64,000 nucleotides of DNA from Rhizobium sp. NXC24. Lineage in GTDB: Bacteria > Pseudomonadota > Alphaproteobacteria > Rhizobiales > Rhizobiaceae. The number at the start of each line of letters is the position of its first letter. Position 1 is the stretch's first letter. This document shows positions 11,329 through 31,160 of the stretch, in pieces. A model generated the notes under the pieces. That model did no database searches. It had not been told where the DNA came from and saw only the letters and a program-made list of their open reading frames with translations. The stretch covers positions 2,315,651 through 2,379,650 of the forward strand of contig NZ_CP024314.1 of the NCBI RefSeq assembly GCF_002944315.1, given 5' to 3'. The position numbers and the translations under genes are program-made.

Positions 11329-12315
11329 ATGGAACTTATTGTCGCCCTTGGCCTGATCATCTTCAAGGTCGCGTTTCTGATTGCGATCCTTTTACTGCTG
11401 CCCTTGCCGCTGACCTGGCTGGAACGCAAGATTGCCGGGCACATGCAGCAGCGGATGGGCCCGATGCGCGTGGGGTGGCACGGGCTGCTGCAGCCGATGG
11501 CGGATGGGATCAAGCTCTTCACCAAAGAGGACCATATCCCTGCCGAGGCCGATCGCTTCCTGTTCAAACTGGCGCCAATACTGGCACTTGTCCCACCCTT
11601 TGTGGTGTTCGTCGCGATCCCGTTCGGCGAAACCGTCTCGGTTCTCGGCACCAAGATCACGCTCTACGTCTCCAACATGAATGTGGCGATCCTGTTCGTA
11701 TTCGCGGTGATCGGGATCGAGGTCTATGGCGTCATCTTCGGCGGCTGGGCCGCCAACAGCAAATATGCTGTCCTCGGCAGTCTCAGGACGTGCGCGCAGA
11801 TGATCAGCTATGAGATCCCGATGGGGTTCTCGGTCATCGGCGTGGTGATGCTGGCGCAATCCATGAGTCTCCTTGAGATCGTGCGAGCGCAAGCCGATGT
11901 TTGGAACATCGTCTATCAACCGATCGGCTTCTTCGTGTTCTTCGTCGCCGGCCTGGCCGAAGCGCAGCGCATTCCCTTCGATTTGGCGGAAGCGGAAGGC
12001 GATCTAGGGGCCGGGTTCCATACCGAATACAGCGGCATCCGCTTTGCGTTCTTCATGGTCAGCGAATATGCCATCGTCTTGCTGGTGTCCGTCCTGGTGG
12101 TGATCCTATTCTTGGGCGGCTGGAACGGCATATTACTCCCCTTGCCGCCACTCCTCTGGTTTCTGCTCAAGGTCGCGTTCGTCGTCTATTTGTTTATGTG
12201 GTTCCGCTTCACTTTCCCCCGTTACCGCTATGATCAACTGATGGCGATCGGATGGAAAGTCTTGCTTCCTCTGTCGATCGCGAACATAATCATAAGTGGT
12301 ATCGCTTTCTTTTAG
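11329..12315 (+). CDS. nuoH: NuoH, complex I membrane subunit (quinone-site heel)
   Basis: The 328-residue, eight-helix membrane protein joins the peripheral arm to the pumping arm and forms much of the quinone channel. The conserved loops are present: LTWLERKIAGHMQQRMGPMRVGWHGLLQPMADGIKLFTKED, and the acidic loop FDLAEAEGDLGAGFHTEYSGIRFAFF. The ribosome site is weak. It is separated from the other membrane-arm genes: nuoJ to nuoG run on the opposite strand and converge on nuoH-nuoI-CBS. The start directly abuts the CoA-transferase remnant, so its promoter must lie inside that remnant. Confidence 0.96.
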   Translation: MELIVALGLIIFKVAFLIAILLLLPLPLTWLERKIAGHMQQRMGPMRVGWHGLLQPMADGIKLFTKEDHIPAEADRFLFKLAPILALVPPFVVFVAIPFGETVSVLGTKITLYVSNMNVAILFVFAVIGIEVYGVIFGGWAANSKYAVLGSLRTCAQMISYEIPMGFSVIGVVMLAQSMSLLEIVRAQADVWNIVYQPIGFFVFFVAGLAEAQRIPFDLAEAEGDLGAGFHTEYSGIRFAFFMVSEYAIVLLVSVLVVILFLGGWNGILLPLPPLLWFLLKVAFVVYLFMWFRFTFPRYRYDQLMAIGWKVLLPLSIANIIISGIAFF

Positions 12316-12345
12316 GGGCCACGGCGGCTCCGCAGCGAGGCGACA

Positions 12346-12912
12346 ATGTCGCGCGCACAGGACAGACTTGGAACATGGATCGGCTGGGCATTCTTCGCCG
12401 ATCTGGCGGGCGGCTTGGCTTTGACCTTCGGCTACATGTTCTCCAGATCCGTAACCATGCAATATCCTGACAAGGAAAAATGGCTGCCCTACTCGCGTTA
12501 TCGTGGGCACCACTTCCTGACGCGCGACGACGAGGGTGAGATCAAATGCGTGGCCTGCGAACTCTGCGCCCGGATTTGTCCCTGCGACTGCATCGAAGTC
12601 GTCCCCTACGAGGATGCGAAGGGCAATCGGCACCCGGCAAAATTCGAGATCGACACGGCCCGGTGCCTGTTTTGCGGGCTTTGCGAGGATGCCTGCCCCG
12701 CGGATGCGATCGCGCTTGGCCAGCAGTACGAATTCTCTAGTTTTTCCTCCCGTGACCTGGTGATCGGACGCGAGGATCTGCTCGGCAAGCCGGGCAAGGC
12801 GACAACCGGCGGCGGCGTGGTCGCTGCGCGCCTGAACGCCGGACAGGACGTTCGGGTCGAGACGAACGATCCGCAGGGTTACAACTGGTGGCGAAATATC
12901 CGGCGAACATGA
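12346..12912 (+). CDS. nuoI: NuoI, complex I 2x[4Fe-4S] subunit
   Basis: The 188-residue ferredoxin-type subunit carries clusters N6a and N6b that pass electrons from NuoG to NuoB. Both motifs are intact: CVACELCARICPCDC and CLFCGLCEDACPADA. The short N-terminal hydrophobic stretch and the YRGHHFLTRDDEGEIKC lead-in are typical. The C-terminal tail beyond the second cluster is somewhat long. It follows nuoH by 30 bp with a GAGG ribosome site and is clearly co-transcribed. Confidence 0.95.
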   Translation: MSRAQDRLGTWIGWAFFADLAGGLALTFGYMFSRSVTMQYPDKEKWLPYSRYRGHHFLTRDDEGEIKCVACELCARICPCDCIEVVPYEDAKGNRHPAKFEIDTARCLFCGLCEDACPADAIALGQQYEFSSFSSRDLVIGREDLLGKPGKATTGGGVVAARLNAGQDVRVETNDPQGYNWWRNIRRT

Positions 12913-12955
12913 GCGCGCCCGCGGGCAAGCCGGAGCGCGCAGACAGGAGGCTCAG

Positions 12956-13396
12956 ATGCTTGTTTGCCAAATCTTGAAAACCAAATCGCCCGAGCTCATC
13001 TCGATCAGGCCAGATCGGCCCATGTTGGAGGTCCTGCGATTGTTTAGGGAAAACAACATCGGCTTCGTGGTCGTCGGCCGCAAACCGGGGGAATGCCTGG
13101 GTACGCTGTCGGAGCGGGACTGCTGCAATGCGGTGGCTGAATACGGAACCGAGGCTCCGATGATGCGGGTTGCCGACATCATGAACCGCAGGGTGGCGAC
13201 CTGTTCGACACAGGATTTGCTGCCCTTTGTGATGGCGCTTATGACCAAACGACGCACGCGCCATGTGTTGGTCATGGAGGGCGGCAGCCCTGTCGGGGTG
13301 GTGAGCATCGGCGACGTGGTCAAGCACCGGCTCGATGAATCGCTGCGCAACGAGCAGGCACTGCATGATTATATTGCCGGAACCGGTTATCACTGA
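12956..13396 (+). CDS. Two-CBS-domain protein co-transcribed with nuoHI
   Basis: The 146-residue soluble protein consists of tandem CBS domains (about residues 8-62 and 76-133, e.g. NIGFVVVGRKPGECLGTLSERD and RRTRHVLVMEGGSPVGVVSIGDVVKHRL). Such pairs bind adenine nucleotides or NAD(H) and regulate a partner. An AGGAGG site 6 bases before the ATG predicts strong translation. Its position 43 bp behind nuoI suggests it senses energy state for this complex I, but that role is inferred. No catalytic domain is attached. Confidence 0.88.
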   Translation: MLVCQILKTKSPELISIRPDRPMLEVLRLFRENNIGFVVVGRKPGECLGTLSERDCCNAVAEYGTEAPMMRVADIMNRRVATCSTQDLLPFVMALMTKRRTRHVLVMEGGSPVGVVSIGDVVKHRLDESLRNEQALHDYIAGTGYH

Positions 13397-13446: not shown

Positions 13447-16038
13447 TCAGCGCAAGCTATTGGATTTTGCGTCTCCGTCGACGACCGTGGGAATCGCGAA
13501 GGTCGCGTACGCCTTTCGAACGTCGACGGGGCATGGATATTCGCCCCGCCGCATCAATGCGTTGAGGCGCAGAGCTCTGTAGTTTTCGGGAATGAATACG
13601 AGCCCTTCGGGAAAGCGCCTGTTGACCTTGAGCTTCGCCGTCAACTCGCCCCGAGCAGATCGCACGGTGACCTGATCAAGATCCGAAAGGCCGAGTTGAG
13701 CGGCATCCTGCGCGCTCATCTCGACATAAGGGTCATCTGCGACCGTATTCAGGATTTCCGAGCGCTCGGAGAGATACCCGTTGTGGAATAGGCAGTCTCC
13801 GGTGATGAGCATGAGCCGGTCGGCTGCTTTCGGCGCCGGTGGTGACGCGAAGAACTCGCCGGCCGGTATTGCGGGGACTGCCTTGGTGAATGCGCCATCG
13901 GCGCCAAGCCCCGCCTGTGTCAGCCCCTGATAGGCGGGAACCAATTGGGTAATCTCGGCAAAAATTTCGCCTTGTATCGATGGCCGCAAAGCTTGGTTGC
14001 GAAGCGCCGCGACGAAGTCGAAGATCGCCAGATTGCCTCGCGCCTCGAAGGCGGGTTCGCGAAATTTGCGGACCGTTTGAGTCCGGCCTTCATTATTGGT
14101 GAAGGTGCCGGTTTCTTCGCCGTAACCTGCCGCGGGTAGGACGACCTCGGCAAGACCCGCGGTATCCGTAAGGAAAGTGTCCTGCACGATCAGCAGATCG
14201 GCGGCGCCAAGCGCCCGGGTCACGAAATCCCTGTCGGGATAAGCGATCAGAGGATCGGCTCCGGCTATGTAAAGTGCGCCCATCTCCCCACTGACGCAGA
14301 GCTCCAACATGGCGTCGAGACCCGCGCCGGATTCAGACGGGATTTCGGTACCCCAGCTCCGTGCGAGTGTGGCTCGCGCCGCGTCATCATGGATCGCCTG
14401 CAACCCCGGCAGAGCCGCCGGCAAAACCCCCATATCCCAGGCGCCCATCTGGTTGGCGCGGTCGAAGAGGAACTGCATTGCAGGGTTCTTGCCGAGCAGG
14501 CGGAGAACCCGCAGCAGGTTGTTGAGCTGTTGCAACGTCGCCCGCGCTTCGGGTGATCTCAGCAGCTCAATGCTGACGAGCACGCTGACGCTGCCGCCGT
14601 TATTGAGGGCTTCGACGAGGTGATCCGGCCGGTCATTGCCGGTACTCGCCGCCGATCTACCAATTTTTGCGCTGATGTCGGCCAAAGCGTCACGCTGCAA
14701 AGTCTGGTCGGCCGCTGCCAAGAGCCCGGTTACTACCGCCGCGAGGCTCGCCGGTTCTCCACCTGGGGAAACGCGAACGACCACCCGGGCATCGGCATCC
14801 AGACGGGATGGCCGCGCCGAAAGCATCAGCAATGCGGTATGTCGCCGCCGGGCGCCGTCCCGCAGCAGGTATTCGGTAACCGGGTTCTCTTCGGTGACGT
14901 TGCCGCCAACGATCAGCACGCAGTCATTGCCGATCATTTCCTCGAGCGGTGCGCGGCTGTAGAAGCTTGCCGCCAACGGGCCGAGTATATCGAAGGGCGT
15001 GGACCAGCGCGTCGAACAGTCAATGTTGTTGGTCCGGAACACCGTCCGCATCAGCTTCTGGAACTGATACAGCACTTCATTCGGCAAACGCGGCGAGGCC
15101 AGCCCGCTGGCAGCCTTACTCTTGACGTCCGACAACCGCCGGCGCAGATAGTCCCCTGCTTCGTCCCAGGAAACCGGGACCAGGGCGCCATCGCGACGGA
15201 TCATCGGCCGCTTGATCCGGTCTCTGCTCGAGACGAAATCCAGACCGAAGCGTCCTCGCACGCAGAGCGTTTCGCGGTTGAGCCCCTGATCCCACTTCGA
15301 GCGCACCCGCATGAACTCGCCCTTGCGCGTGCCCACCGTTAGCTGGCAACCGGTGCCGCAATGCGGGCAGACAGTATCGGTTTCAACCAGATCCCAGGGC
15401 CGCGCCTTATAGCGATAGGGGAAGCTCATCAGCGCGCCGACCGGGCAGACCTCGATGCAATTGCCGCACTGATCGCAACTCGCGAGGCTACCCTCGAAAC
15501 CGGTGACGGCGGTATCCATGCCTTTTTCGACGGTTCCGAGCGCGACCGCGCCGACGACCTCCTCACACATCCGGACGCAGCGCTGGCACTGGATGCAGCG
15601 GTTGACGTTCATGATGATCACGGGGCTGAGGCGGATGTCCTTGGAGTGGAACACACGCTTTTCATCGCGGAATCCACTTTCACGGGGCCCGTAGGCCATC
15701 ACCATGTTCTGAAGCTCGCATTCGCCGCCCTTGTCGCAGATCGGGCAATCGAGAGGGTGGTTGGCGAGCAGCATGTCGAGCATCGAAGAGCGCGTTTCCT
15801 CAATGAGCGGCGTGGTCGTCCGTACCACCATGCCGTCGGTGACCGCGGTGGCGCAGGACGGCTGCAGCCGCCGCAGCCCCTCGATCTCCACCAGACACAT
15901 GCGGCAGGAGGCCAGCGCCGGCAGGCGCTTCAGATAGCAGAAGGTCGGGATATCGATGCCCAAACGCTGGGCGGCCTGCAGCACGGTCGAGCCAGCCTCA
16001 ACTTCCAGCGTTTGTGTGTCGATCGTAATGCTAACCAT
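13447..16038 (-). CDS. nuoG: NuoG, complex I large iron-sulfur subunit
   Basis: The start at 16038 (MVSITIDTQTLEVEAG, with GAGGAAG upstream) gives 863 residues; 16 further codons are open upstream. An N-terminal [2Fe-2S] domain is followed by the HPLDCPICDKGGECELQN box, two [4Fe-4S] sets (CIQCQRCVRMCE and CDQCGNCIEVCP), then the extra N7-type set CPHCGTGC with a distal Cys in TLCVRGRFG, and a molybdopterin-oxidoreductase fold. The large size and N7 motif resemble E. coli-type and formate-dehydrogenase-like NuoG, unlike the shorter mitochondrial-type NuoG common on alphaproteobacterial chromosomes. It is the last gene of the minus-strand nuo operon. Confidence 0.95.
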   Translation of the reverse strand: MVSITIDTQTLEVEAGSTVLQAAQRLGIDIPTFCYLKRLPALASCRMCLVEIEGLRRLQPSCATAVTDGMVVRTTTPLIEETRSSMLDMLLANHPLDCPICDKGGECELQNMVMAYGPRESGFRDEKRVFHSKDIRLSPVIIMNVNRCIQCQRCVRMCEEVVGAVALGTVEKGMDTAVTGFEGSLASCDQCGNCIEVCPVGALMSFPYRYKARPWDLVETDTVCPHCGTGCQLTVGTRKGEFMRVRSKWDQGLNRETLCVRGRFGLDFVSSRDRIKRPMIRRDGALVPVSWDEAGDYLRRRLSDVKSKAASGLASPRLPNEVLYQFQKLMRTVFRTNNIDCSTRWSTPFDILGPLAASFYSRAPLEEMIGNDCVLIVGGNVTEENPVTEYLLRDGARRRHTALLMLSARPSRLDADARVVVRVSPGGEPASLAAVVTGLLAAADQTLQRDALADISAKIGRSAASTGNDRPDHLVEALNNGGSVSVLVSIELLRSPEARATLQQLNNLLRVLRLLGKNPAMQFLFDRANQMGAWDMGVLPAALPGLQAIHDDAARATLARSWGTEIPSESGAGLDAMLELCVSGEMGALYIAGADPLIAYPDRDFVTRALGAADLLIVQDTFLTDTAGLAEVVLPAAGYGEETGTFTNNEGRTQTVRKFREPAFEARGNLAIFDFVAALRNQALRPSIQGEIFAEITQLVPAYQGLTQAGLGADGAFTKAVPAIPAGEFFASPPAPKAADRLMLITGDCLFHNGYLSERSEILNTVADDPYVEMSAQDAAQLGLSDLDQVTVRSARGELTAKLKVNRRFPEGLVFIPENYRALRLNALMRRGEYPCPVDVRKAYATFAIPTVVDGDAKSNSLR

Positions 16039-16070
16039 GGCTTCCTCACGCGTCTCACCCAACGCTCTGC

Positions 16071-17336
16071 TCAGTGAAACGGACACCTCCGCTCCTCTAT
16101 ATGGGCGACGAATTCAGGCTCGAAATGCTGCAGCGCCGCCCTCAGCCCCATGGCCGCGCCGTCGCCGAGCGCACAGAACGTATTGCCGAAAATGCCCTTG
16201 CAGAGTGCCTTTAACTGTTCCAGGTCGCCCGGTGCGCCCTCCCCGGCCTCAAGCCGGCGCAGCACCTTCACCACCCAGTTCAGCCCCTCGCGGCAAGGGG
16301 TACACTTGCCGCAGGACTCATGGTGGAAGAACTCGATGATCCTGGTGGCGACCTTGACCACGCAGGTCGAGTCGTCGATCACGATCACCCCGGCCGAGCC
16401 TAGCATCGAGCCGACAGCCGCCAGCGAGTCAAAGTCCATTCCAACGTCCAGACCCCTTTCCGGGATCAGCGGCGCAGAAACGCCGCCGGGGATCACCGCC
16501 TTAATCTTGCGCCCGGGCAGCGCGCCACCGGCGTGCTCCTCGACCAGTTCGCGAAGCGGGATGCCCATCGGCAACTCGAAGAGGCCGGGTTTGCGCACCT
16601 GTCCGCTGAGGCAATAGAGCTTCGGGCCGGGGCTCTTCTCCGGGCCGATGCTGCGGAACCAATCAGGCCCTCGCATAACAATGTGCGGCACGCAAACCAG
16701 CGTCTCGACATTGTTGATAACGGTCGGGCTGGCATAGAGCCCGGCCACAGCGGGAAATGGCGGTTTCAGTCGCGGCTGAGCCCGCTTGCCCTCGAGCGAC
16801 TCGAGCATCGCAGTCTCCTCGCCGCAGATATAAGCGCCTGCGCCGCCGTGAATGTGTACGGTGAAATTGAAGTCCGACCCCAGAATGCCCCTTCCGAGAT
16901 AATGCTTTTCATGAGCCTCGGCGATCGCCTGCTCCAGGCGCCGTATCGCCGTTACATATTCTCCGCGAACATAAACATAGGCGATCTCGGCTCCAATTGC
17001 GTAAGCGCTAATTGCCAGCCCCTCGATGAGCTGATGCGGGTCACGCTCCATGATGATCCGGTCCTTGAAGGTACCCGGTTCGCCTTCATCGGCGTTGCAG
17101 CACAGATATTTCGGCTTATCGGCCCGCTTCGGCACGAAGCTCCATTTCATGCCCGTAGGGAATCCTGCACCGCCGCGACCACGCAGGTTGGACTTCTTGA
17201 CGAGTTCGACGATCTCGTCGGGCGCGGACTCGCGCAGCACCTTTGCCAGCGCCTGGTAGCCACCGCCAGCCTCGTAGGTCGAGAGCAAATGGCCTTCGGG
17301 CATTCCGACATTTTTGAGTAGAACCTGCTCGAACAT
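16071..17336 (-). CDS. nuoF: NuoF, NADH-binding flavoprotein subunit of complex I
   Basis: The 421-residue subunit binds NADH, FMN and the N3 [4Fe-4S] cluster. Seen are GRGGAGFPTGMKWSFVP (NADH site), the FMN segment CNADEGEPGTFKDRIIMERDPH, YICGEETAMLESLEG, and the cluster ligands CGKCTPCREG plus a distal Cys. Length is that of the family. It is 2 bp downstream of nuoE and 32 bp upstream of nuoG. NADH-specific input is therefore intact, so this is a true NADH:quinone oxidoreductase and not an F420H2- or ferredoxin-type complex. Confidence 0.96.
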   Translation of the reverse strand: MFEQVLLKNVGMPEGHLLSTYEAGGGYQALAKVLRESAPDEIVELVKKSNLRGRGGAGFPTGMKWSFVPKRADKPKYLCCNADEGEPGTFKDRIIMERDPHQLIEGLAISAYAIGAEIAYVYVRGEYVTAIRRLEQAIAEAHEKHYLGRGILGSDFNFTVHIHGGAGAYICGEETAMLESLEGKRAQPRLKPPFPAVAGLYASPTVINNVETLVCVPHIVMRGPDWFRSIGPEKSPGPKLYCLSGQVRKPGLFELPMGIPLRELVEEHAGGALPGRKIKAVIPGGVSAPLIPERGLDVGMDFDSLAAVGSMLGSAGVIVIDDSTCVVKVATRIIEFFHHESCGKCTPCREGLNWVVKVLRRLEAGEGAPGDLEQLKALCKGIFGNTFCALGDGAAMGLRAALQHFEPEFVAHIEERRCPFH

Positions 17337-17338
17337 GG

Positions 17339-17851
17339 CTACGCTCCCGGCGGTCGCACAGAGGCATGCTCAATGCTCGCTGCCCGCTCGGCTGTCGCCC
17401 GAAGGCGGTCCAAGAGTGCATCGATCCGCGCGATGTCGAGGTTTCCGTGATAGTCGTCGCCGACCTGCATCGTCGGAGCCATTTCACAAGCGCCAAGGCA
17501 TTCGACGGTCGAAAGCGTGAACAGCCCGTCCGGGGTGGTGTCGCCCTTTTTGATTCCCAGCACCGTTTCCAGATGCGTCAGCAGGCTCTCGGATCCGCAC
17601 AGCATGCAGGAGACATTGTCGCAGAGCTGCAGGTGGAAAATCCCCACCGGCTCGGTATGGAAGTGGGTGTAGAAGGTCGCCAGTTCGTAGACCCAGATCC
17701 GCTCGACCCCGAGAATGTCTGCAACCTCTTCCAACACAGAGCCTGGCAGATGGCCATGTTCCCTCTGGGCAATCAGAAGCGCGGGCATGATCGCCGAGCG
17801 CCGGTCGGGATACCGCACTGCCGCCTCTTCGATCTTTTCGCGCATGGTCAT
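17339..17851 (-). CDS. nuoE: NuoE, complex I [2Fe-2S] subunit
   Basis: The ATG at 17851 is chosen over a TTG three codons upstream, giving 170 residues of thioredoxin-like fold carrying the N1a [2Fe-2S] cluster. The four ligands are CDNVSCMLCG (first and second positions) and CLGACEMAP. The segment LPGSVLEEVADILGVERIWVYELATFYTHF is the family helix. It lies between nuoD (16 bp gap) and nuoF (2 bp gap). Confidence 0.94.
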   Translation of the reverse strand: MTMREKIEEAAVRYPDRRSAIMPALLIAQREHGHLPGSVLEEVADILGVERIWVYELATFYTHFHTEPVGIFHLQLCDNVSCMLCGSESLLTHLETVLGIKKGDTTPDGLFTLSTVECLGACEMAPTMQVGDDYHGNLDIARIDALLDRLRATAERAASIEHASVRPPGA

Positions 17852-17867
17852 TGCGTCCAAATCCCTG

Positions 17868-19082
17868 CTACTTGTCCACCTCCGCCATCACGGGGTCGAG
17901 GCTGCCCAGCACGGCGATCATGTCCGCCAGGTAACGAGCGTTGGTGACCCCGAAAAGTGCCTGAAGGTTGACGAAGGAGGGTGCTCGCACCTTCATGCGG
18001 AATGGCTTTGGTGACCCGTCGCTGATGATGTAGAAGCCGAGTTCGCCCTTCGGCGCTTCGATCGCCGAATAGACCTCGCCCTTCGGCACCTTGAAGCCGT
18101 AAGCAGACAGGTCGAAATGCTGGATGAGCGCCTCCATCGAACAGTGCACCCGATCCTTATCCATCGGGAAGGCGATGGTCGGCATGTCGATCTGGAACGG
18201 CCCCTCGGGCATCTGCTCGATGCATTGCTCGATAATCCGGATGCTTTCGCGCATCTCATCGACCCGACACCTCCAGCGTGCGTAACAATCGCCCTCGCTG
18301 CGGGTGATGACGTTGAAATCGAGCCGGTCATAAATTTCATAGGGTTCGTCGCGCCGGATGTCCCAGTCGACTCCGGAAGCGCGCAGGTTCGGGCCACTCA
18401 AGCCGAGATCGATAGCGTCCTCGGCGGAGATCACGCCAACTCCTTCGGTGCGCTTGAGGAACACCCTATTTTTCTCGAGCAACCGCTCATAGTCGCGGAT
18501 ACGGTTCGGGAAGATGTCGCAGAACTCCCTGATCTTGGGCAGGAAGCCGTCAGGCAGGTCCTCGCGCAACCCGCCGACCCTGCAGAAGGAGGTGTGCATG
18601 CGTGCACCGGTAATCATTTCCATCAGGTCCATGATCATTTCGCGTTCGCGCATGGCGTAAAGGAGCGCGGTCATGGCGCCGAGGTCCATCGGCAACGCGC
18701 CAGTGATCAGGAGATGACCGGATATCCGCGCCAGCTCGGCCATCATCACGCGGACATACTGCGCCCTGAACGGTGCTTCTATGCCGAGGAGTTTCTCCAC
18801 CGCCAGTGCAAAGGCCAGATTGTTCGAGGGCGGGCAGAGATAGTCGAGCCGATCCGTCAGCGGGAAAATCTGGGTATAGGTGAAGCTCTCCGCCAGCTTT
18901 TCGGTCCCGCGATGGAGGTAGCCGATATGCGGGTCTACGCGCTCGACGCACTCGCCATCCAGCTCAAGGACGAGTCTGAGAACCCCATGAGTGCTGGGGT
19001 GCTGCGGGCCGAGATTGAGAAGCACTTCCCTGGTATTGAGCGCTTCGCCCTCTGGCCTGCTGAGCTCGGTGACTTCGGTCAT
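17868..19082 (-). CDS. nuoD: NuoD, complex I 49-kDa-type quinone-site subunit
   Basis: The start MTEVTELSRPEG at 19082 gives 404 residues. Hallmarks are LNLGPQHPSTHGVLRLVLELDGE near the N-terminus, HIGYLHRGTEKLAE, the conserved RLDYLCPPSNN and the ending SFVNLQALFGVTNARYLADMIAVLGSLDPVMAEVD. Together with NuoB it forms the quinone reduction pocket. It starts 1 bp after the nuoC stop; nuoC and nuoD are separate genes here, in contrast to the fused nuoCD of E. coli. Confidence 0.96.
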   Translation of the reverse strand: MTEVTELSRPEGEALNTREVLLNLGPQHPSTHGVLRLVLELDGECVERVDPHIGYLHRGTEKLAESFTYTQIFPLTDRLDYLCPPSNNLAFALAVEKLLGIEAPFRAQYVRVMMAELARISGHLLITGALPMDLGAMTALLYAMREREMIMDLMEMITGARMHTSFCRVGGLREDLPDGFLPKIREFCDIFPNRIRDYERLLEKNRVFLKRTEGVGVISAEDAIDLGLSGPNLRASGVDWDIRRDEPYEIYDRLDFNVITRSEGDCYARWRCRVDEMRESIRIIEQCIEQMPEGPFQIDMPTIAFPMDKDRVHCSMEALIQHFDLSAYGFKVPKGEVYSAIEAPKGELGFYIISDGSPKPFRMKVRAPSFVNLQALFGVTNARYLADMIAVLGSLDPVMAEVDK

Positions 19083-19083
19083 C

Positions 19084-19647
19084 TCAACTTTCCGGCGTAG
19101 AACGGACCCCCTGTGGAATGTCCCTGGTGGCGAGGTCCGGCTGCGTTGGCGGCGGGCCTTCGGCACCAAAGGGATTCAGCTTGTCCTTGTATCCGCGCAG
19201 GGGAAAATCCTTGCGCTGGGGAAACCCCGCGAAGCCCTCCCACATGTAGATCCGGCGCAGGTCGGGATGCCCCTCGAACCTGATGCCATACATGTCCCAG
19301 GCCTCGCGCTCATGCCAGTTGGCCGTGCGCCAGACGCCTGTGACCGAGGGAAGCTGCGGTGGGTCGCCAAGCCGGCATTTGATGCGAACTCGCCACCTGT
19401 TGGATAGCGAATAGAGGTGGTAAACCGCTTCGAACCGCGGCGTTTCGGGATAATGATCGACTCCGCAGATGTCCGAAAGAAAATTGAACTGCAGCGCCGG
19501 ATGTTCTTTCAGGAATCGGCAGAACTCGACGATCGCGGCAGGTGGGACAGCAAAGGCATGAATGCCGTGGGCGACGCCGAGATCCTCGATTGCTTCTCCG
19601 AAACGCTCCATGATCAGGGCGGGATTGAGAGGCTGCTTCACGCTCAT
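19084..19647 (-). CDS. nuoC: NuoC, complex I 30-kDa-type subunit
   Basis: The 187-residue hydrophilic subunit shows [13 protein letters not shown], the strand-turn [18 protein letters not shown], and the family signature [23 protein letters not shown] followed by FPLRGY. It overlaps nuoB by 4 bp (ATGA) and precedes nuoD by 1 bp. Length is slightly shorter than chromosomal alphaproteobacterial NuoC. Confidence 0.95.
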
Positions 19648-20147
19648 GACGTTGCAACCCGGTCCAGGGGCGTTCCGGCCAGCGCGCGGGACCTCTTGAT
19701 CTTCTCCTGAAGCAGGAGGAAGCCATGCATCAGCGCCTCCGGCCGCGGTGGACAGCCGGGCACATGCACGTCGACGGGCACGAAGGTTTCCGACCCCTGC
19801 ACCACGGCGTAGGTGTTGTAGACCCCGCCTGAAATAGCGCAGGTACCCATTGCGATCACCCAGCGCGGTTCCGGCATCTGGTCATAAAGCCGCCGCACGA
19901 CGGGCGCGAATTTCCGGGTCACAGTACCCGCGATGATCATCACATCGGACTGTCGAGGCGAAGGACGGAACACCACGCCGAAGCGGTCAAGATCATAGCG
20001 AGCGCAACCCGCCGAAATCATCTCGATGGCGCAGCAGGCAATTCCGAAAGTCTCGGGCCACAGCGCCGACCTTCGACTCCAGCTAATAATGCTGTCGGCC
20101 GTTGTGAAAAGCACGCTGTCGCGGATCGCATTGTTTACGCCTCCCAT
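19644..20147 (-). CDS. nuoB: NuoB, complex I subunit carrying terminal cluster N2
   Basis: The ATG at 20147 with AGGGAG upstream gives 167 residues; a longer open frame upstream lies inside nuoA and is ignored. N2 ligands are present: the tandem Cys pair in GIACCAIEM, Cys in [10 protein letters not shown] and Cys in [13 protein letters not shown]. It overlaps the nuoA end by 13 bp and the nuoC start by 4 bp. Confidence 0.96.
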
Positions 20148-20500
20148 TCCAGCGCTCCCTTCAGCCAGGCGTAGGCGAAGCCCACAAGAAGCAGCAACAT
20201 GAAGACGAACATCTCGACATAGCCGACCAGCCCGATCTCTTTCAGGACGACAGCCCAGGGAAAGAGGAACATTGCTTCGACATCGAAGACGACCAGCAGG
20301 ATTGCAAGAATAAAAAACGGCACCCTGAAACGGCCACCGGCCGCCTCCCCCGCCGCGTCCATCCCACATTCATAGGGCATGTTCTTCGCGGGATAGGGAT
20401 TGGATGGGCGCAGTAGCGAGGAGACGAAAAGCGTCAGCCCCGCCACCAGAACGACTCCGGCGACCATGAAAAGAACCGGCAAGAATTCCATTGCAGTCAT
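20135..20500 (-). CDS. nuoA: NuoA, complex I small membrane subunit
   Basis: The 121-residue protein has three transmembrane helices and the family loop [41 protein letters not shown]. The start is placed at the ATG at 20500; a GTG 12 bp upstream and an ATG 9 bp downstream are also possible. A 150-bp gap separates it from nuoN, the largest gap inside the minus-strand operon, and could hold an internal promoter. Confidence 0.95.
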
Positions 20501-20650
20501 AGCACACTGCACCGGTTACCCACTTGGAGGCTTTCCTCGGCAAACCGACCTCGTTTGGACCGGTAAGCGTCGCTCCGGAAAGCGGCTTGGGCAATCCTTT
20601 CTTGAATTGTCAGTTTATTCCGTCGGGCGGGTCATTGCAAATCCAATTGA

Positions 20651-22090
20651 TCAACCGCCAAACACCGAATGCTGGGCAAGCCTCAGAAACCACGATGGAA
20701 ATAGGCCGATACCGATTGTACCGGCGGCGGTGAAGGCGAGCGTGGCGCGCACCAATGGCGTCAGCGCCGGGGCGAAGGCCCTCCCTGGCTCGCGCATATA
20801 GATCACCATGACGATGCGGATGTAGAAGTAGGCGGCAACGGCGCTCAGCAGCACTGCGATCACCGCCAGCATGACGAAACCTCGCTCGACGAGCGCGACC
20901 AGCACGTAGAACTTGGCGAAGAACCCGGCCGTGGGCGGAATGCCGGCCAGCGAGAAGAGATAGAGCAGCATCAGAAGTGCCAGCCCCGGATGCGACTTGG
21001 CCAACCCCGCATAGTCTTCGATGACTTCGCCCGAAAAATCGCCATTCCGCATCATGATGACGGTGCCGAAGATGCCGAGATTCATGAAAGAATAAATCAA
21101 TAGGTAGAGCATCACGCTGGCGATGCCGTCCGGGCCGCCTGCCGCCACGCCAAAAATCGCGAACCCGGCATGGGCGATGCTGGAATAGGCCAGGAGGCGC
21201 TTGAAATTATCCTGCACCAGCGCCACGAAACTGCCGAGCGCCATCGTCGCCACCGCAATGACCGCAACGATGATCCAAACATTCGAGGCTGCAACGAGCG
21301 GATTGAGGAACACGCGCAGGATCACCGCGAACCCCGCAGCCTTGGGGCCAACCGACATGAAAGCCGTGATCGTCGTCGGCGCGCCTTCGTAAACGTCCGG
21401 CACCCACATATGGAACGGGACCGCGCCGACTTTGAAGACCAGCCCCGCGACGATGAAAACCACCGCCAGCAGTAATCCGGGGTCAAGCGGATTACCGGTC
21501 ACTGCCGCAGCCATCCCGTCTAGCTGCGTCGTGCCGGTGAGCCCATAGACAAGGGAAACGCCGAAAAGGAAAATCCCGGTCGAGACCGAGCCGAGGATCA
21601 CATATTTAAGCGCCGCTTCGTTCGACCGACGCTGCTGGCGCAGGAACCCGGTCAGCACATAGGTGCAAAGCACCATCAGTTCGAGCCCCACATAGATCGA
21701 CAGGAGATCGGTCGCCGAGGCCATGATCATCATTCCCGAAAGCGCGAAGAGCAGCAGGACATAGTATTCGCTGCTGCCGATCCCTTCGATATCGGCATAT
21801 TTTCGTGAAAGGAGGAATGTCAGGATAGTGGCTAGGTAGAACACGAACTTGAAAAAGACCGCGAAGCGGTCGGCGATGAACATGCCTGCATAGGCCGGCC
21901 GCACCTCGCTCGCCAGCATGAGTGTCGCCAGGGCGGCGATCAGCACGACCACGACGGAAGCCCAGACAAGGAAATATTCCTGCTCCTTTCGCACAAACTG
22001 TCCCAGGATCAGCAGGACGCAGGCTCCGGTGACCACCACGATCTCGGGTATGCTCGCCAGGATCGACTGGAAAAGCGCGGCGTCGGTCAT
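20651..22090 (-). CDS. nuoN: NuoN, antiporter-like pumping subunit of complex I
   Basis: The 479-residue, 14-helix subunit has the proton-path residues in context: Glu in YVGLELMVLCTYVL, Lys in FKVGAVPFHMWVPDVYEGAPT, and Lys in SVGPKAAGFAVILRVF, plus YSSIAHAGFAIFG. The start overlaps the nuoM stop by 4 bp (ATGA). It is one of four antiporter-like subunits in this operon. Confidence 0.95.
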   Translation of the reverse strand: MTDAALFQSILASIPEIVVVTGACVLLILGQFVRKEQEYFLVWASVVVVLIAALATLMLASEVRPAYAGMFIADRFAVFFKFVFYLATILTFLLSRKYADIEGIGSSEYYVLLLFALSGMMIMASATDLLSIYVGLELMVLCTYVLTGFLRQQRRSNEAALKYVILGSVSTGIFLFGVSLVYGLTGTTQLDGMAAAVTGNPLDPGLLLAVVFIVAGLVFKVGAVPFHMWVPDVYEGAPTTITAFMSVGPKAAGFAVILRVFLNPLVAASNVWIIVAVIAVATMALGSFVALVQDNFKRLLAYSSIAHAGFAIFGVAAGGPDGIASVMLYLLIYSFMNLGIFGTVIMMRNGDFSGEVIEDYAGLAKSHPGLALLMLLYLFSLAGIPPTAGFFAKFYVLVALVERGFVMLAVIAVLLSAVAAYFYIRIVMVIYMREPGRAFAPALTPLVRATLAFTAAGTIGIGLFPSWFLRLAQHSVFGG

Positions 22091-23562
22091 TGGCCATTCC
22101 CCTCACCGTGTACGTGCGCCAGCAGATGCTTTACCGACACGTCTATGATGTTGAGAAAAGGTTTCGGGTAGAGCCCGACCCAAAGAACAAAGACGGCGAG
22201 CGGCAAGATCGCAGCCACTTCGCGGGCATTCACATCGCGTATCTTGAACCGGATGCCGACGCTGGGCGGACCGAGCGCGACTTTCCCATACATGCCAAGC
22301 AGATAGGCGGCACCCAGCAATGCGCCCAAAACAGCGGCCGCGCCGGCCGCCAGGTTGGTCGCAAACCCGCCCGACAGCACCAGCAACTCGCCCACGAACG
22401 AATTCGTTCCCGGCAGCGCCATTGATGACAGGGTGAACAGCGCGAGAAACGCTGTGTAAACGGGCGCCACCTTCATCAGCCCGCCATAATCCGCGATGCT
22501 GCGAGTATGTGTTCGCTCGTAGATCAGGCCGACGAACAGGAACAACGCACCCGTCGTTATGCCATGATTGAACATTTGCAGAATGCCGCCCTCGAGCCCA
22601 CGAAGGTTCAGCGAAAAAATTCCCAGCGTCACGAAGCCCATGTGGCTGATGCTGGAATAGGCCACCAGCTTCTTCAGATCGTCCTGCGCCAGCGCAAGCA
22701 ACCCGCCATAGACGATCGCAAGCGCCGAAAGCCCCAGCATCAGCGGCCCATAATACACCGACGCCTGCGGCAGCATCGGCAGCGAGAACCGCAGGAACCC
22801 ATAGGCGCCCATCTTCAAGAGCACGCCGGCAAGGATGATGCTGCCCGCCGTCGGCGCCTGCACATGAGCGTCGGGCAGCCAAGTATGAAGCGGGACCATC
22901 GGCACCTTGACCGCGAAGGCGATCAGGAAGGCGAAGAATAGCCAGGACTGGAGCCGGAACGGCAAATCCTGTGCTGTGAGCGCAAGGATGTCGAAGGTCT
23001 TGCCGCCCTGGAGATAGAGCACGATGACACCGATCAGGAACAGAAGGCTGCCCGCCAGCGTGTAGAGGAAGAATTTGAACGCTGCATAGATCCGGCCGTC
23101 GCCGCCCCAGACGCCGATGATCAAATACATCGGGATCAGCATGGCCTCCCAGAAGACGTAGAACAAGAAGAGGTCGAGCGCGCAGAACACCCCCAGCATA
23201 AGAGCCTGCATGACCAGGAGACTGGCCATGAACCCCTTAACCTTGCGGTCGATCGCGACCCACGAGGCGAGTACGCAGATTGAGCCCAACAGCGCAGTCA
23301 GGAACACGAAGAGCGCGCTGATTCCGTCGATCCCAAGCGCATAGCTGATCCCGATTGCGGGCACCCACAGGCGCGTCTCGGTGAACTGCATCGCGTGGCT
23401 GGTGGTGTCAAAGTTCGCAAGCATGACGATGCAGAGAGCAAGGTCGAGAATGGTGACGGTAAGCGCCGTCCAGCGCGCCGCTTCATCGCCGCGCAGAAAC
23501 ATCAGAACCGCAGCACCCGCGGCGGGCGTGAATACGATCAGGCTAAGAAGCGGGAATCCCAT
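22087..23562 (-). CDS. nuoM: NuoM, antiporter-like pumping subunit of complex I
   Basis: The start MGFPLLSLIVFTPAAG at 23562, with AGGGGG upstream, gives 491 residues; the frame continues upstream inside nuoL without meaning. Diagnostic features are YVFWEAMLIPMYLIIGVWGG (essential Glu), AVKVPMVPLHTWLPDAHVQAPTAGS (Lys), LLKMGAYGFLRF (Lys) and YSSISHMGFVTLG. It starts 8 bp after nuoL and overlaps nuoN. Confidence 0.95.
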   Translation of the reverse strand: MGFPLLSLIVFTPAAGAAVLMFLRGDEAARWTALTVTILDLALCIVMLANFDTTSHAMQFTETRLWVPAIGISYALGIDGISALFVFLTALLGSICVLASWVAIDRKVKGFMASLLVMQALMLGVFCALDLFLFYVFWEAMLIPMYLIIGVWGGDGRIYAAFKFFLYTLAGSLLFLIGVIVLYLQGGKTFDILALTAQDLPFRLQSWLFFAFLIAFAVKVPMVPLHTWLPDAHVQAPTAGSIILAGVLLKMGAYGFLRFSLPMLPQASVYYGPLMLGLSALAIVYGGLLALAQDDLKKLVAYSSISHMGFVTLGIFSLNLRGLEGGILQMFNHGITTGALFLFVGLIYERTHTRSIADYGGLMKVAPVYTAFLALFTLSSMALPGTNSFVGELLVLSGGFATNLAAGAAAVLGALLGAAYLLGMYGKVALGPPSVGIRFKIRDVNAREVAAILPLAVFVLWVGLYPKPFLNIIDVSVKHLLAHVHGEGNGQ

Positions 23563-23570
23563 CGCACCCC

Positions 23571-25346
23571 CTACCGCCACACCACGGCGAAGACGACGGT
23601 AGCTGCGATCACACCGACGATCATCGCCAGCGCATAATGGGTGACGACCCCGGTCTGGAGCCGCCGCAGCGCCCCGCCACCACGCAGAATCGAGCGAGCA
23701 ACGCCGTTCACGGCGGCATCCACCCCGCTGAGATCGATCTGCAGTCCCGATCGCGCCGCTCCATGCAGGAAGGGCAGGGCTGCGGTCTCGGACACGTCGC
23801 TCACCGCCTTCTCGTAGCGCGCCAGTGGTTTTTCGGCGAGCCACATGAAGAGCCGAGCGCCCTTGCGATAGAACCAATCAGTATCGATGCTGATCGTGTT
23901 CTCGGGATCGAGCGCCTTGAGGAACAGCACAAATCCCAGGGCGGTGAACATCAAGAGGCCGAGGCTCTCAGTGACATGGAGGCCTGTGTAGGGTTCAAAG
24001 TCGACCGGATAAGGCAGAAGCGCATAGAGCGGCTGGGGGAACACTCCGATCCCAATGCAGAGCACTGCCGCCATGGCCATTGCAACCAGCATGTTGCGTG
24101 GCGCCTCCCGCGCCTCGATTTTCCGATCCGTGCCGAAAAACATATAATACGGCAGCTTGAGCCCGGTGTGCAGGAACGTTCCAGACGACGCCATCGTCAG
24201 CGCCAGCACTACCAGCGCCCGATGATCCGCTCCAGCGGCGGCTATCACCATCGACTTGGTCACAAAGCCCGAGAAGAACGGAAACGCCGAGATCGCGAAA
24301 GCGCCGACCATGTAGAGTGCCACGGTAAGCGGCATGCTCTTGTAGAGGCCGCCAAGCTCGGTGAGCTTGCGCCGCCCGGTAACATAGATCACTGCGCCGG
24401 CTCCCATGAAGAGCAGGGCCTTGTAGAGGATATGCGCGAAGGCGTGGCTGGTGGCCCCATTCACGGCCATCTCCGTCCCGATGCCGATGCCCGCCACCAT
24501 GTAGCCCACCTGGCTGACGATATGATAGGCCAGAAGCCGGCGGCAGTCGTTCTCCAGCACCGCGTAGATGACACCGTAAAGCGCCATTGCCGTGCCGAGC
24601 CAAACAAGAAGCTCGGTGCCTGGAAACGCCCGCGCCAGGGCATAGACGGCGGTCTTGGTGGTGAAGGCGCTCATGAACACCGCCCCGGTGACGGTCGCTT
24701 CCGGATAGGCATCGGTCAGCCAGGCATTGAGTGGCGGCACCGCTGCGTTAAGGATGAACCCGGCGAGGATCAGATAGGCGCCCACGCCCATTCCACCGTC
24801 GATCGGCCCCCACTCCATCGGGCCAAAGAGCAGCGAGCCGGTGGCGAGACCATGGAGAATGATGCCGCCGAGCAGAACGACACCGCCGGTGATATGAACC
24901 ATGAGATACCGGAACCCTGCCCGGATCGCCGGCCCGCCGCGCTGCGCGAAGACCAGGTAGGCGGAAGCGAATGCCATGGCCTCCCAGAACATGTAGAGGG
25001 TCAGGTAATCACCGGCGAACACCACGCCGAGCGCCCCGCCAACATAGATGAAGGCCGCCACGTGCTGACCAGCATCCGTCAGGTGCAGCGCATAGACCAT
25101 GCCGATCAGCGCCATGATGGTGAAAACGGTAGCGAAGACGATGCTCAGCTTGTCGACCTTCGCGATCAGGATTTCCTGCCCGATGAACCGCATCTCGCCA
25201 TAGCTACCCGGCTGCATCGCCAGCACGGCGAGGATCGCAAGCGCCGGGATTACGAGCAAATAGGCCTTGCGGATCGACCCGCTGAGGAACGGGATCGGTA
25301 GAGCGCCCAGAATGAAGAGCAAAGCCGGATGGATGAAGTCAGTCAT
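23571..25346 (-). CDS. nuoL: NuoL-position antiporter-like subunit, MrpD-type core with lengthened lateral arm
   Basis: The 591-residue protein has an antiporter core that reads like MrpD (FWEAMAFASAYLVF; NAAVPPLNAWLTDAYPEATVTG; SAFTTKTAVYALARAFPG), where the usual first channel Lys/His motif is changed (LNAAVPPLNAWL). Its C-terminus is NuoL-like: an amphipathic stretch from DWFYRKG (about residue 490) ends in a final helix LQTGVVTHYALAMIVGV (from 563). From DWFY to HYALAM is about 80 residues, against roughly 50 in E. coli NuoL from memory. It overlaps the 84-residue gene by 8 bp. It is most likely the distal pump with the lateral helix. See findings. Confidence 0.88.
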   Translation of the reverse strand: MTDFIHPALLFILGALPIPFLSGSIRKAYLLVIPALAILAVLAMQPGSYGEMRFIGQEILIAKVDKLSIVFATVFTIMALIGMVYALHLTDAGQHVAAFIYVGGALGVVFAGDYLTLYMFWEAMAFASAYLVFAQRGGPAIRAGFRYLMVHITGGVVLLGGIILHGLATGSLLFGPMEWGPIDGGMGVGAYLILAGFILNAAVPPLNAWLTDAYPEATVTGAVFMSAFTTKTAVYALARAFPGTELLVWLGTAMALYGVIYAVLENDCRRLLAYHIVSQVGYMVAGIGIGTEMAVNGATSHAFAHILYKALLFMGAGAVIYVTGRRKLTELGGLYKSMPLTVALYMVGAFAISAFPFFSGFVTKSMVIAAAGADHRALVVLALTMASSGTFLHTGLKLPYYMFFGTDRKIEAREAPRNMLVAMAMAAVLCIGIGVFPQPLYALLPYPVDFEPYTGLHVTESLGLLMFTALGFVLFLKALDPENTISIDTDWFYRKGARLFMWLAEKPLARYEKAVSDVSETAALPFLHGAARSGLQIDLSGVDAAVNGVARSILRGGGALRRLQTGVVTHYALAMIVGVIAATVVFAVVWR

Positions 25347-25593
25347 AATAATCCTCGCGCCGCATCAGCCCGGCCCGATGGCCGAGAAACTTGGAAACGA
25401 AGATGATCAGTATGCAGGAGCCGAAGCCGTAGACGGCGGACCAGCCAGGCAGGCGGTCCCACAGATATTCGGCATGTTCGTGAGAGACCAGAAAGTCAGC
25501 CGCGACGATCAGAATGAGCACGAGATAGAATAGCCGGCGCCGGCGCCTCGCATATTCCTCGTCACCAAAGAAGTCGATGACACGCTTGATCAT
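25339..25593 (-). CDS. Small two-helix membrane protein of the nuo operon
   Basis: I do not recognise this 84-residue protein. It has a basic N-terminal patch (YARRRRRLF), two hydrophobic segments (about 22-40 and 54-72) and a charged tail ending REDYYD. It overlaps the upstream antiporter-like gene by 4 bp (ATGA) and the downstream nuoL by 8 bp, so it is surely translated with them. It may be an accessory membrane subunit that fits between the two extra antiporter-like proteins. Confidence 0.8.
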   Translation of the reverse strand: MIKRVIDFFGDEEYARRRRRLFYLVLILIVAADFLVSHEHAEYLWDRLPGWSAVYGFGSCILIIFVSKFLGHRAGLMRREDYYD

Positions 25594-27053
25594 TTGACCA
25601 CTCCGTCGGCCAGGGTAAGGAAATAGCCGGGAAAGATGCCCATCAGCACCGACAGGATGGCGGTCGCGACGAGCGGGATCGTGACCATAGGGATTTCACG
25701 GATCGTCGCCGGGTTTTCCTCCGCCTCCGCCCCGAAAAAGGCGGCATAGCTGACTGGCAGGAAGTAGGCAGCATTCAGGATCGAGCTCACCAGGAGCACG
25801 GCCAGGAACGCGATCTGCCCTGCCTCCACGGACCCCAAAGTCAGATACCACTTGCTGATGAAGCCCGCGGTCGGCGGTATCCCGATCATGCTCAGCGAAG
25901 CGATGAAAAATGCGCCCATCGTCCATGGCAACCTGCGGCCGATGCCCGCCATGTCGCTGATGTTGCGCTTACCGGACGCGCAATAGATCGACCCCGCGCA
26001 GAAAAACAGTGTGATCTTCGAGAATGCGTGGGCAGCCATGTGGATAATGCCGCCAACCATCGCGACCGGCGACAGCAGAACCGCACCCAACACGATGTAG
26101 GAGAGCTGGCTAACTGTCGAATAGGCGAGCCTCGCCTTAAGGTCGTCTCGCGTCAGGGCATAGATCGACGCCATGAGGATCGTAAACGAGACCAGATAGG
26201 CCGTGGCGATGCCGAGGCCGAGCTCCCCGACCAACTTGACGCCAAAGACATGAAACACCACTCGCAGCAGGCAAAACACGCCCATCTTGACCACGGCCAC
26301 GGCATGCAAGAGCGCGCTGACCGGCGTCGGCGCCACCATCGCGGCAGGCAGCCAGGCGTGCATCGGCATCACCGCGGCCTTGGCGAAGCCGAAGAGATAG
26401 CAGAAATAGACGATCGTCAGCAGCGCCGCCGAGGCATTGACGCCCGCCAACAGCCCGCCCTCCCTAAAATCGAGCGATCCCGCAATGGAGTAGGTCAGTG
26501 CCAGCGCGGCGAGCAGGACGCTTTTCGAGGCTCCCATCAAATAGACGAGATATTTGTGGGCACCCCTCCACCCCTCTTCATCCTCGTGGTGATAGACAAG
26601 CGGATAGGTAACGAGGCTGAGCACCTCGTAGAAGATGACCAAGGTGAACAGATTGGCGGCGAAGGCACCCCCGACAGCCGCCGCGAGGCTGGTGGCGAAG
26701 CAGGCGAAGAAGCGGGTCTGCGCATGTTCGTTCAAGTGCCGCATATAGCCGATGGAATAGAATGCGGCCACGATCCATAAAAGCGACGAGATAGTGGCGA
26801 ACACCATGCCGAGCGCGTCGGCCCGGAAAGCGAACTCGACCCCCGGCAAGATTTCGAACAGGCGCAAGTCGACGGTCCCGCCCGCCAGCACCGTCGGCGC
26901 CATTGAAGCGACAATCGCAAACAGAACAATTGCTGCTATTGGCGATACGATATCGCGGAGTTTCTCGCGGTTGTTCAGAAGCAGAATTATTAGGGCCGCC
27001 AGGCCTGGGACGGCGACGGCAAGCAGTGGCCGGATCGATATCACCGGGTCCAA
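25590..27053 (-). CDS. Fourth antiporter-like subunit (MrpD/HyfB-NuoM type)
   Basis: The 487-residue polytopic protein is a complete antiporter-like subunit: Glu in FYEVLSLVTYPLVYHHEDEEG, Lys in GFAKAAVMPMHAWLPAAMVAPTPVSALLHAVAVVKMG and YSTVSQLSYIVLG. It lacks a lateral helix. A TTG start at 27053 is used because AAAGGA lies 7 bases before it and nuoK ends just upstream; a GTG three codons in is the alternative. Canonical complex I has only NuoL, M and N, so this is an additional pump-like subunit placed between nuoK and nuoL. Confidence 0.88.
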   Translation of the reverse strand: MDPVISIRPLLAVAVPGLAALIILLLNNREKLRDIVSPIAAIVLFAIVASMAPTVLAGGTVDLRLFEILPGVEFAFRADALGMVFATISSLLWIVAAFYSIGYMRHLNEHAQTRFFACFATSLAAAVGGAFAANLFTLVIFYEVLSLVTYPLVYHHEDEEGWRGAHKYLVYLMGASKSVLLAALALTYSIAGSLDFREGGLLAGVNASAALLTIVYFCYLFGFAKAAVMPMHAWLPAAMVAPTPVSALLHAVAVVKMGVFCLLRVVFHVFGVKLVGELGLGIATAYLVSFTILMASIYALTRDDLKARLAYSTVSQLSYIVLGAVLLSPVAMVGGIIHMAAHAFSKITLFFCAGSIYCASGKRNISDMAGIGRRLPWTMGAFFIASLSMIGIPPTAGFISKWYLTLGSVEAGQIAFLAVLLVSSILNAAYFLPVSYAAFFGAEAEENPATIREIPMVTIPLVATAILSVLMGIFPGYFLTLADGVVK

Positions 27054-27057
27054 GCCG

Positions 27058-27360
27058 CTATCCTTTCATCATGGTAACGTCGTCGACCTTGAGGGTGGAT
27101 TTGTTCCTCACAAGGGCGACCAGGATACCGAGGGCGACGGCAACCTCCGCCGCGGTAATTGCAATGACGAAGATCGCGAAGATCTGCCCGCGGAAATCGT
27201 CGTATTGACGTCCAAAAGCGATGAAGTTGATGTTGACCGAGTTGAGCAGTAGTTCCAGCGACATCAGCACGACCAGAATATTGCGCCTGAGCAGCACGCC
27301 CGCTGCTCCGATCACGAAGAGGATCACTGCGAGCAAAATATACCACCAGAGCGGAACCAT
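27058..27360 (-). CDS. nuoK: NuoK, complex I small membrane subunit
   Basis: The 100-residue, three-helix subunit has the family pattern [30 protein letters not shown] with the conserved membrane Glu in SLELLLN and a second Glu in [15 protein letters not shown]. Its start overlaps the nuoJ stop (TGATGG). Confidence 0.95.
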
Positions 27361-27860
27361 CAGCTCGACTCCTTCCGCGCCAGAACGATAGCCCCGATCA
27401 GTGCCGCCAGCAGAATGACAGAGGCGACTTCAAACGGCAGAAGATAGTCGGAAAAAAGTGTCGTGCTGAGCTGCCTAATCTCATCGCCGCCACGCGCAAC
27501 GACGGGCTCCGTGGCCAAAAAGCGCGGGCTCCGGAGAACCAGCACGAGCATCTCGACGCCAAGCAGAACGAGCAGCACCAGAGCCGGCAGATTGCCACCC
27601 GGCAAGAACCGCTGCAACACCGCTTCGCGCACATCAATCATCATGATCACGAATAGGAACAGGACCATGATCGCGCCGACATAGACGAAGATCTGGATGG
27701 CCGCGAGCAACGGCGCCCCGAGCAAGACGAAAATTGCGGAAACCTGCAGGAAACACGCCATCAGCGCCAATGCGCTGTGAACCGGATTGCGCGCCACGAC
27801 GACCATCAGGGCCGCGATCACGGACACCGTAGCGAACAGAAGAAAGAACCCCTGATCCAT
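27360..27860 (-). CDS. nuoJ: NuoJ, complex I membrane subunit
   Basis: The 166-residue, five-helix subunit shows [50 protein letters not shown], the pi-bulge helix region of NuoJ. A GGGAGGG site precedes the ATG at 27860. It is the first gene of the 14-gene minus-strand operon (nuoJ to nuoG), so the operon promoter must lie in 27861-28049. Confidence 0.94.
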
Positions 27861-31080: not shown

Positions 31081-31160
31081 GATTTCTACCGACCAATCCT
31101 TGCCACCCGCGTTGCGGGAGGGCTTGTGCCCTCCCGCATTCTCCAGATGCTTCGAGCGGC

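Follow-up and report, generated by a model that had tools for sequence, protein, structure and literature searches.

How the proton stoichiometry of complex I relates to the number of its antiporter-like subunits, and whether each of these needs a Glu-Lys pair, are questions of the enzyme's mechanism that are raised by a nuo cluster in a 64,000 nucleotide stretch of Rhizobium sp. NXC24 DNA (contig NZ_CP024314.1; the whole stretch is referred to here as the window). The cluster encodes four antiporter-like subunits, two of which, here called D1 and D2, are of the MrpD type and stand in the place of NuoL, and a preliminary description of the DNA had proposed that it might be an instance of a fourth proton pump with an MrpD-like core. 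The MrpD-like pair is indeed present, although the system is not new, and the cluster is the described rhizobial "green complex I", a second respiratory complex I. The explanation that we favour, with a probability of roughly three in four when taken as a whole, is that of a plasmid-borne second complex I in which an Mrp cassette replaces the body of NuoL, a lateral helix braces four antiporter-like subunits, and D2 lacks the lysine of transmembrane helix 7 (TM7). The green enzyme is a natural test of the mechanism, with four modules, one of them without a lysine whose loss NuoL, NuoM and NuoN mutants do not tolerate, and rhizobia also carry a canonical complex I that provides a built-in control.

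The antiporter-like genes and their relatives

The four antiporter-like genes, and a small gene between two of them, are as follows.

25590..27053, minus strand: D1, MrpD-type antiporter-like subunit, 487 residues, TTG start (PRK08375.1-1, 'antiporter subunit D', 841.6 bits, cut-off 663; tree)
25339..25593, minus strand: orf84, conserved, 84 residues with two hydrophobic stretches, between D1 and D2
23571..25346, minus strand: D2, antiporter-like subunit at the NuoL position, 591 residues (PRK12668.1, 'antiporter subunit D', 785.3 bits, cut-off 564; tree; fold)
22087..23562, minus strand: nuoM, 491 residues (TIGR01972, 628.9 bits for a 489-residue piece, 22087-23556; tree)
20651..22090, minus strand: nuoN (TIGR01770, 518.7 bits; tree)

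The nuoM ATG is at 23560-23562, 8 bp past the D2 stop, which gives the product the length of its homologue in L201, an annotated relative locus in Rhizobium sp. Pop5. All four antiporter-like reading frames are open, their products have best NCBIfam E-values of 2e-155 or lower, and each has PF00361 above the cut-off in a Pfam scan, in agreement with the preliminary count of four antiporter-like subunits in one nuo operon. The genes were also said to overlap or nearly touch, as they do (D1/orf84 by 4 bp, orf84/D2 by 8 bp and nuoM/nuoN by 4 bp); the listing of the four pump-like genes was right, and orf84 had been overlooked. All 13 complex I subunits other than NuoL are encoded in the cluster, and there is no true NuoL.

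Passages of PMC9040806 and PMC7415380 describe the green complex I of rhizobia as an enzyme in which NuoL has given way to two MrpD-like subunits, and these descriptions rule out a new, undescribed four-pump enzyme. The window agrees with them in that an MrpD-like pair replaces NuoL, all other subunits are encoded alongside, and a canonical nuo operon is present in the same genome. Rhizobium freirei, which is named in a figure legend on green complex I, has a D2 that is 95% identical to that of the window. A peculiar rearrangement of gene order and raised expression in symbiosis are reported in part of PMC7415380, and an additional 4Fe4S cluster in NuoG in a figure legend of PMC4967309; the order of the green cluster in the window differs from that of the canonical nuo operon of its own genome. 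The green complex I passages of PMC9040806 and PMC7415380 make no mention of three features described below, a chimeric lateral helix, an asparagine in TM7 and orf84.

Both D1 and D2 are related to Mrp-type proteins. In a tree of 106 of the 158 aligned rows (with SH-aLRT support only and no bootstrap, and with locus L071 on long branches), the window D1 groups with stand-alone D1 and the window D2 with stand-alone D2 (SH-aLRT 100 each), NuoM groups with canonical NuoM (100) and NuoN with canonical NuoN (98-100), and both D1 and D2 fall outside the NuoM clade. The tree rules out D1 as a duplicate of NuoM or NuoN, and D2 is not a plain NuoL (NF009310 785 bits versus TIGR01974 136), although its tail is still NuoL-like. 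Up to the anchor from which its lateral helix is measured (see below), D2 has a median identity of 47% to 20 stand-alone D2 proteins and 28% to 16 NuoL proteins. The stand-alone set consists of 20 loci, 19 above the cut-off (three from one genome) and L071 below it.

The D1-orf84-D2 cassette is common to green complex I and Mrp-type antiporter clusters. MrpD precedes D1/D2 in 17 of the 20 stand-alone loci and an orf84-like gene is found by BLASTP in 16; there is no further MrpD beside D1/D2 in L060 and L071, and L031 ends at a contig edge. Mrp-type clusters (L053-L070) share the cassette, with D1 and D2 40-54% identical to those of the window; unlike the window, they have no nuo operon in the 20 kb viewed and have a lateral helix of normal length without the NuoL tail. 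The neighbours in L054, for example, are by Pfam MrpE, F, G, MbhD/E-like, MnhB and a NuoK/MrpC-type gene. Two D1-D2 pairs (L060, 7251-10816, in genome G081, which includes an orf84-like gene, and L071, 8849-12228, in G337) stand without further recognised Mrp or nuo neighbours.

We found 257 homologues of orf84, which has no match in Pfam, NCBIfam or solved structures. The aligned rows, from green and Mrp-type settings alike, share the motif R-x-(E/D)-x-(Y/F)-Y at the C-terminus as well as the two hydrophobic stretches. Ratios of nonsynonymous to synonymous substitution (dN/dS) were calculated for the window against each locus, leaving out pairs of unequal length (77 pairs for orf84, 60 for D1, 76 for nuoM and 80 for D2), and indicate purifying selection on both orf84 (median 0.22, range 0.12-0.54) and D2 (median 0.10).

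The lateral helix and channel residues of D2

A long amphipathic helix from TM15 to TM16, the lateral helix (HL), braces both complex I and Mrp (PMC7419157, in part). D1 carries no lateral helix, and D2 carries both HL and TM16. Counted from a conserved anchor of the D-x-x-Y type as far as the middle of TM16, using hydropathy and the sequence anchor, HL is 90-91 residues long in all 84 green D2 proteins. It is 59-73 residues (median 67.5) in the 20 stand-alone D2, 61-70 (median 66) in 16 of the 17 canonical NuoL (one is unmeasured, and L196 has an unusual anchor), and 32-38 in five MrpA with anchors set by eye, where it has one neighbour to span. Lengths of ~36, 67 and 90 residues track two, three and four antiporter-like subunits, and the green D2 helix exceeds that of relatives with three such subunits by 22-24 residues. 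With a rise of 1.5 angstroms per residue these correspond to ~35 angstroms, near the width of one antiporter-like subunit, and the additional length supports the presence of four antiporter-like subunits in one complex.

The end of D2 differs in character from its body. Its last 54 residues have a median identity of 39% to NuoL (n=16) and 23% to stand-alone D2 (n=20), with median scores of 64 and 8 respectively; 200 shuffled tails give 1.9 (standard deviation 4.4, highest 17.2), and stand-alone tails compared with NuoL tails have a median score of 4 and a highest of 34 (320 pairs). A profile made from 16 NuoL tails matches 84 of 84 green D2 (median 41.9 bits; in the window, residues 48-98 past the anchor); among stand-alone D2 it matches 19 of 20, with a median of only 0.9 bits. 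An MrpA origin of the tail finds no support: five MrpA score 12-22 versus the NuoL median of 64, and the profile gives no more than 6.4 bits with 10 long open reading frames from five MrpA loci, a set that includes proteins other than MrpA. Several VIA-align rows stop at D2 residue 492 (E. coli NuoL 544), with 99 and 69 residues respectively left to the C-terminus, and residue 492 also lies where the confidently predicted portion of the AlphaFold2 model of D2 comes to an end. Judged from these comparisons HL of D2 looks chimeric, with an Mrp-D2-like start and a NuoL-like end followed by a NuoL-like last transmembrane helix. This is most simply read as a replacement of the NuoL body by the cassette, with the distal NuoL HL and TM16 kept or grafted, and the chimeric helix suggests how an antiporter-like module can be added in evolution.

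The preliminary description had attributed the charged residues of proton channels to all four subunits, which holds for D1, NuoM and NuoN, with their TM7 lysine, but not for D2, which has asparagine instead. The TM5 glutamate is present in all 158 aligned rows. The TM7 lysine is found in 17/17 each of NuoL, NuoM and NuoN, 6/6 MrpA, 5/5 MrpD, 17/17 stand-alone D, 19/19 stand-alone D1, and 10/10 each of green D1, M and N. In green D2 the position is asparagine in all ten rows of this alignment and in 84 of 84 in a larger one (Asn200 in the window); a pattern match finds it in 119 of 120 close homologues (P0105 is unmatched). Stand-alone D2 proteins have lysine in 16 of 20 and asparagine in four (L031 and L071 counted), and the TM7 change thus also occurs outside of complex I; for one Asn-type protein a pattern match finds 118 Asn and one Leu among 120 homologues taken regardless of gene context, with one unmatched. 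Mrp-type clusters with TM7 asparagine in D2 include L062, L063 and L064.

The histidine neighbouring the TM7 lysine site is also asparagine in D2, and the TM5 Glu, TM8 Lys and TM12 Lys are retained. D1 retains the TM5 Glu, TM7 Lys, TM8 His and Lys, and TM12 Lys, and NuoM keeps its TM12 Glu. Residue 151 in TM6 of D2 is histidine in 84/84 green D2 and in 3/3 above-cut-off Asn-type proteins, and glutamine in 12 of 16 Lys-type proteins; it is possible that His151 is a compensating residue that partners Glu122.

Proton stoichiometry and alternative explanations

In the explanation that we favour, an ancestral complex I would have exchanged its NuoL body for a D1-orf84-D2 cassette derived from a cation/proton antiporter of the Mrp type, which would already have had three antiporter-like subunits, with the NuoL tail (the distal lateral helix and last transmembrane helix) either kept or grafted onto D2. 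The resulting helix would have the length needed to brace all four antiporter-like subunits, with the arrangement K-N-M-D1-D2. The likely proton pumps would be the three that have a Glu(TM5)-Lys(TM7) pair, N, M and D1, and D1, with a TM8 His and Lys like those of MrpA, looks like the functional counterpart of NuoL. D2 would hold the brace, and may serve as a terminal relay whose gating is altered or as a fourth pump of a non-canonical kind. A combined statement, that there are four antiporter-like modules of which three have the Glu-Lys pair, that the cassette was spliced in through fused Mrp and NuoL half brace helices, and that the distal module functions with no TM7 lysine such that module number is uncoupled from proton number, we put at slightly under even odds.

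The TM7 asparagine of D2 means that three and not four of the subunits carry the Glu-Lys pair, and a fifth proton per NADH is unproven for such a set. Of the two stoichiometries considered, 4 or 5 H+ per NADH, we lean slightly towards 4, and the missing lysine in the distal subunit weakens the case for the change in energy yield that had been claimed. With the same architecture, D2 could alternatively be a full pump that uses its TM8 and TM12 lysines, for five protons per NADH. This is a plausible reading that we nonetheless think somewhat doubtful; it is consistent with the 22-24 residue extension of HL, with the retained TM5, TM8 and TM12 residues and the purifying selection on D2, and with the 5 to 6 protons proposed for complexes with one to two extra subunits (PMC9040806, section 10), but the lysine is replaced in every one of the 84 green D2. 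Moreover, in the parts of the literature concerned, substitutions of the TM7 lysine in NuoL, NuoM and NuoN led to loss of function in earlier studies (PMC3046159), and the ND4 K232Q change at this lysine gave no NADH:ubiquinone reduction (PMC9802314).

Two other explanations give the D1-D2 pair a different task. The grouping of D1 and D2 with Mrp-type proteins, and their naming as antiporter subunits in public records (as in L201, where orf84 is a hypothetical protein), would be expected if D1, orf84 and D2 formed a separate Mrp-like antiporter within a shared operon, leaving a redox enzyme with M and N only. This seems very unlikely: no MrpB or MrpE gene lies beside D1 and D2 in the window, the single MrpE-type and MrpB-type genes of the genome (one match each to PF01899 and PF04039) are both at an Mrp/Pha locus on another contig (C1), the only NuoL above the family cut-off in the genome is also on C1 (888.5 bits), and the NuoL-type tail of green D2 is absent from stand-alone D2. 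The preliminary description had held that grouping of the 25590-27053 product with stand-alone Mrp antiporters, combined with a complex of only three pumps, would refute a fourth; that product does group with Mrp-type proteins, as does the 591-residue subunit, but the longer HL and NuoL-type tail of D2 are what four subunits in one complex would lead one to expect. The Mrp-type origin of the pair could also be taken to mean that it was acquired for ion specificity, with green complex I moving Na+ or running in reverse for uphill NAD+ reduction. We consider this improbable, as in the available part of PMC7419157 MrpA-N/MrpD form the H+-translocating domain and the putative Na+-translocating domain is separate, and the MrpB and MrpE types lie outside of the cluster. 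These points concern Na+, and none of the results counts against reverse electron transport.

Several points weigh against the explanation in which D2 braces a complex of four. A single complex with four antiporter-like subunits is itself a reading of sequence. The HL lengths depend on hydropathy and a sequence anchor, with hand-set anchors for MrpA; distances from TM15 to TM16 separate the classes less clearly (green median 111, NuoL 103); and the HL of the AlphaFold2 model of D2 has confidence values (pLDDT) around or below 50, such that the model does not confirm its reach. PMC9040806, in the part concerned, sees no insertion in the rhizobial HL, but this is relative to a five-pump homologue. 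The Mrp-like character of the start of HL is weak, with a stand-alone-D2-tail profile matching it at a median of 11.1 bits (window residues 1-34) and identities of 30% to stand-alone D2 versus 26% to NuoL. The TM7 asparagine is no proof that D2 does not pump, and an Asn-type subunit can be kept by selection, because 118 of the 120 homologues of the stand-alone Asn-type protein match asparagine. The tree does not resolve the branching order of green, Asn-type and Lys-type D2, and the lysine may have been lost either before or after the cassette transfer.

Two other complexes offer comparisons. Complex_I_3 of Candidatus Manganitrophaceae, a five-pump enzyme compared here through its description in part of PMC9040806, has a related MrpD-type pair in the NuoL place, and differs in that its NuoM is duplicated and its HL has an additional insertion of 26 residues. 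The Nitrospira 2M complex I has four antiporter-like subunits and a lengthened HL as described in the same source, but its extra subunit is a second NuoM whereas the extra pair of the window is of Mrp type.

Cluster organisation and distribution

The minus-strand genes run from 27860 to 13447 in the order nuoJ, nuoK, D1, orf84, D2, nuoM, nuoN, nuoA, B, C, D, E, F and G, and the plus strand from 11329 to 13396 contains nuoH, nuoI and a CBS-domain gene. The genes not listed above are as follows.

27360..27860, minus strand: nuoJ, first of the minus-strand series (NCBIfam NuoJ models, best E 8.8e-39, below curated cut-offs)
27058..27360, minus strand: nuoK (NCBIfam NuoK, 110.7 bits, cut-off 57)
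20135..20500, minus strand: nuoA (NuoA models, below curated cut-offs; start inferred from the length of the L201 homologue, 121 residues)
19644..20147, minus strand: nuoB (TIGR01957 above cut-off; start inferred from the L201 homologue, 167 residues)
19084..19647, minus strand: nuoC (TIGR01961 above cut-off)
17868..19082, minus strand: nuoD (PF00346, 394 bits; start inferred from the L201 homologue, 404 residues)
17339..17860, minus strand: nuoE (PF01257)
16071..17336, minus strand: nuoF (PF01512, PF10589)
13447..16086, minus strand: nuoG, 879 residues, molybdopterin-oxidoreductase-type domains (PF13510, PF10588, PF22117, PF04879, PF00384, PF01568)
12346..12912, plus strand: nuoI (Fer4 domains; 37% BLASTP match to nuoI of the canonical operon; annotated nuoI at the same L201 position)
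11329..12315, plus strand: nuoH (PF00146, 401 bits; nuoH at the same L201 position)
12956..13396, plus strand: CBS-domain protein downstream of nuoI (PF00571, 71 bits; CBS gene at the same L201 position)

The CBS-domain protein may be a member of the H-I unit, or a regulator or part of the green enzyme.

The genome, of 7.3 Mb, encodes nine PF00361 proteins and has the window on its contig C4; contig C1 carries the canonical nuo operon and one Mrp/Pha antiporter, and further canonical nuo genes are found in locus L048. A plasmid of Rhizobium sp. CB3060 matches the segment 19000-28000 with 100% identity, and 98 plasmid records, whose organism names begin with five different words, contain at least 80% of it, at an identity of 80% or higher. 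A search of a species-genome collection with D2 gave 169 stretches, of which the best 80, all at least 84% identical, were used; as products of a single-protein query these green loci represent close relatives only. By stop position, the order J-K-D1-orf84-D2-M-N is found in 78 of the 80, and the other two end at a contig edge before D1. Among 398 genomes sampled from the phylum of the window, 21 have a match to the D2 model above the cut-off. Green complex I is present in four of them, namely the genome of the window and three others from its genus. Of the other 17, 16 have D1 and D2 in ~20 kb stretches where no nuo operon was recognised, and one (G169) is represented by a 3.2 kb contig.

FixK-type boxes (TTGA-N6-TCAA) number zero in the window versus 0.83 expected. 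Upstream of nuoJ, the minus strand at 28050-33673 contains an ATP-binding cassette transporter set (ATPase, permease and periplasmic binding protein) with an AraC-type regulator, and the neighbours at this position in L201 differ, being NfeD and SPFH proteins.

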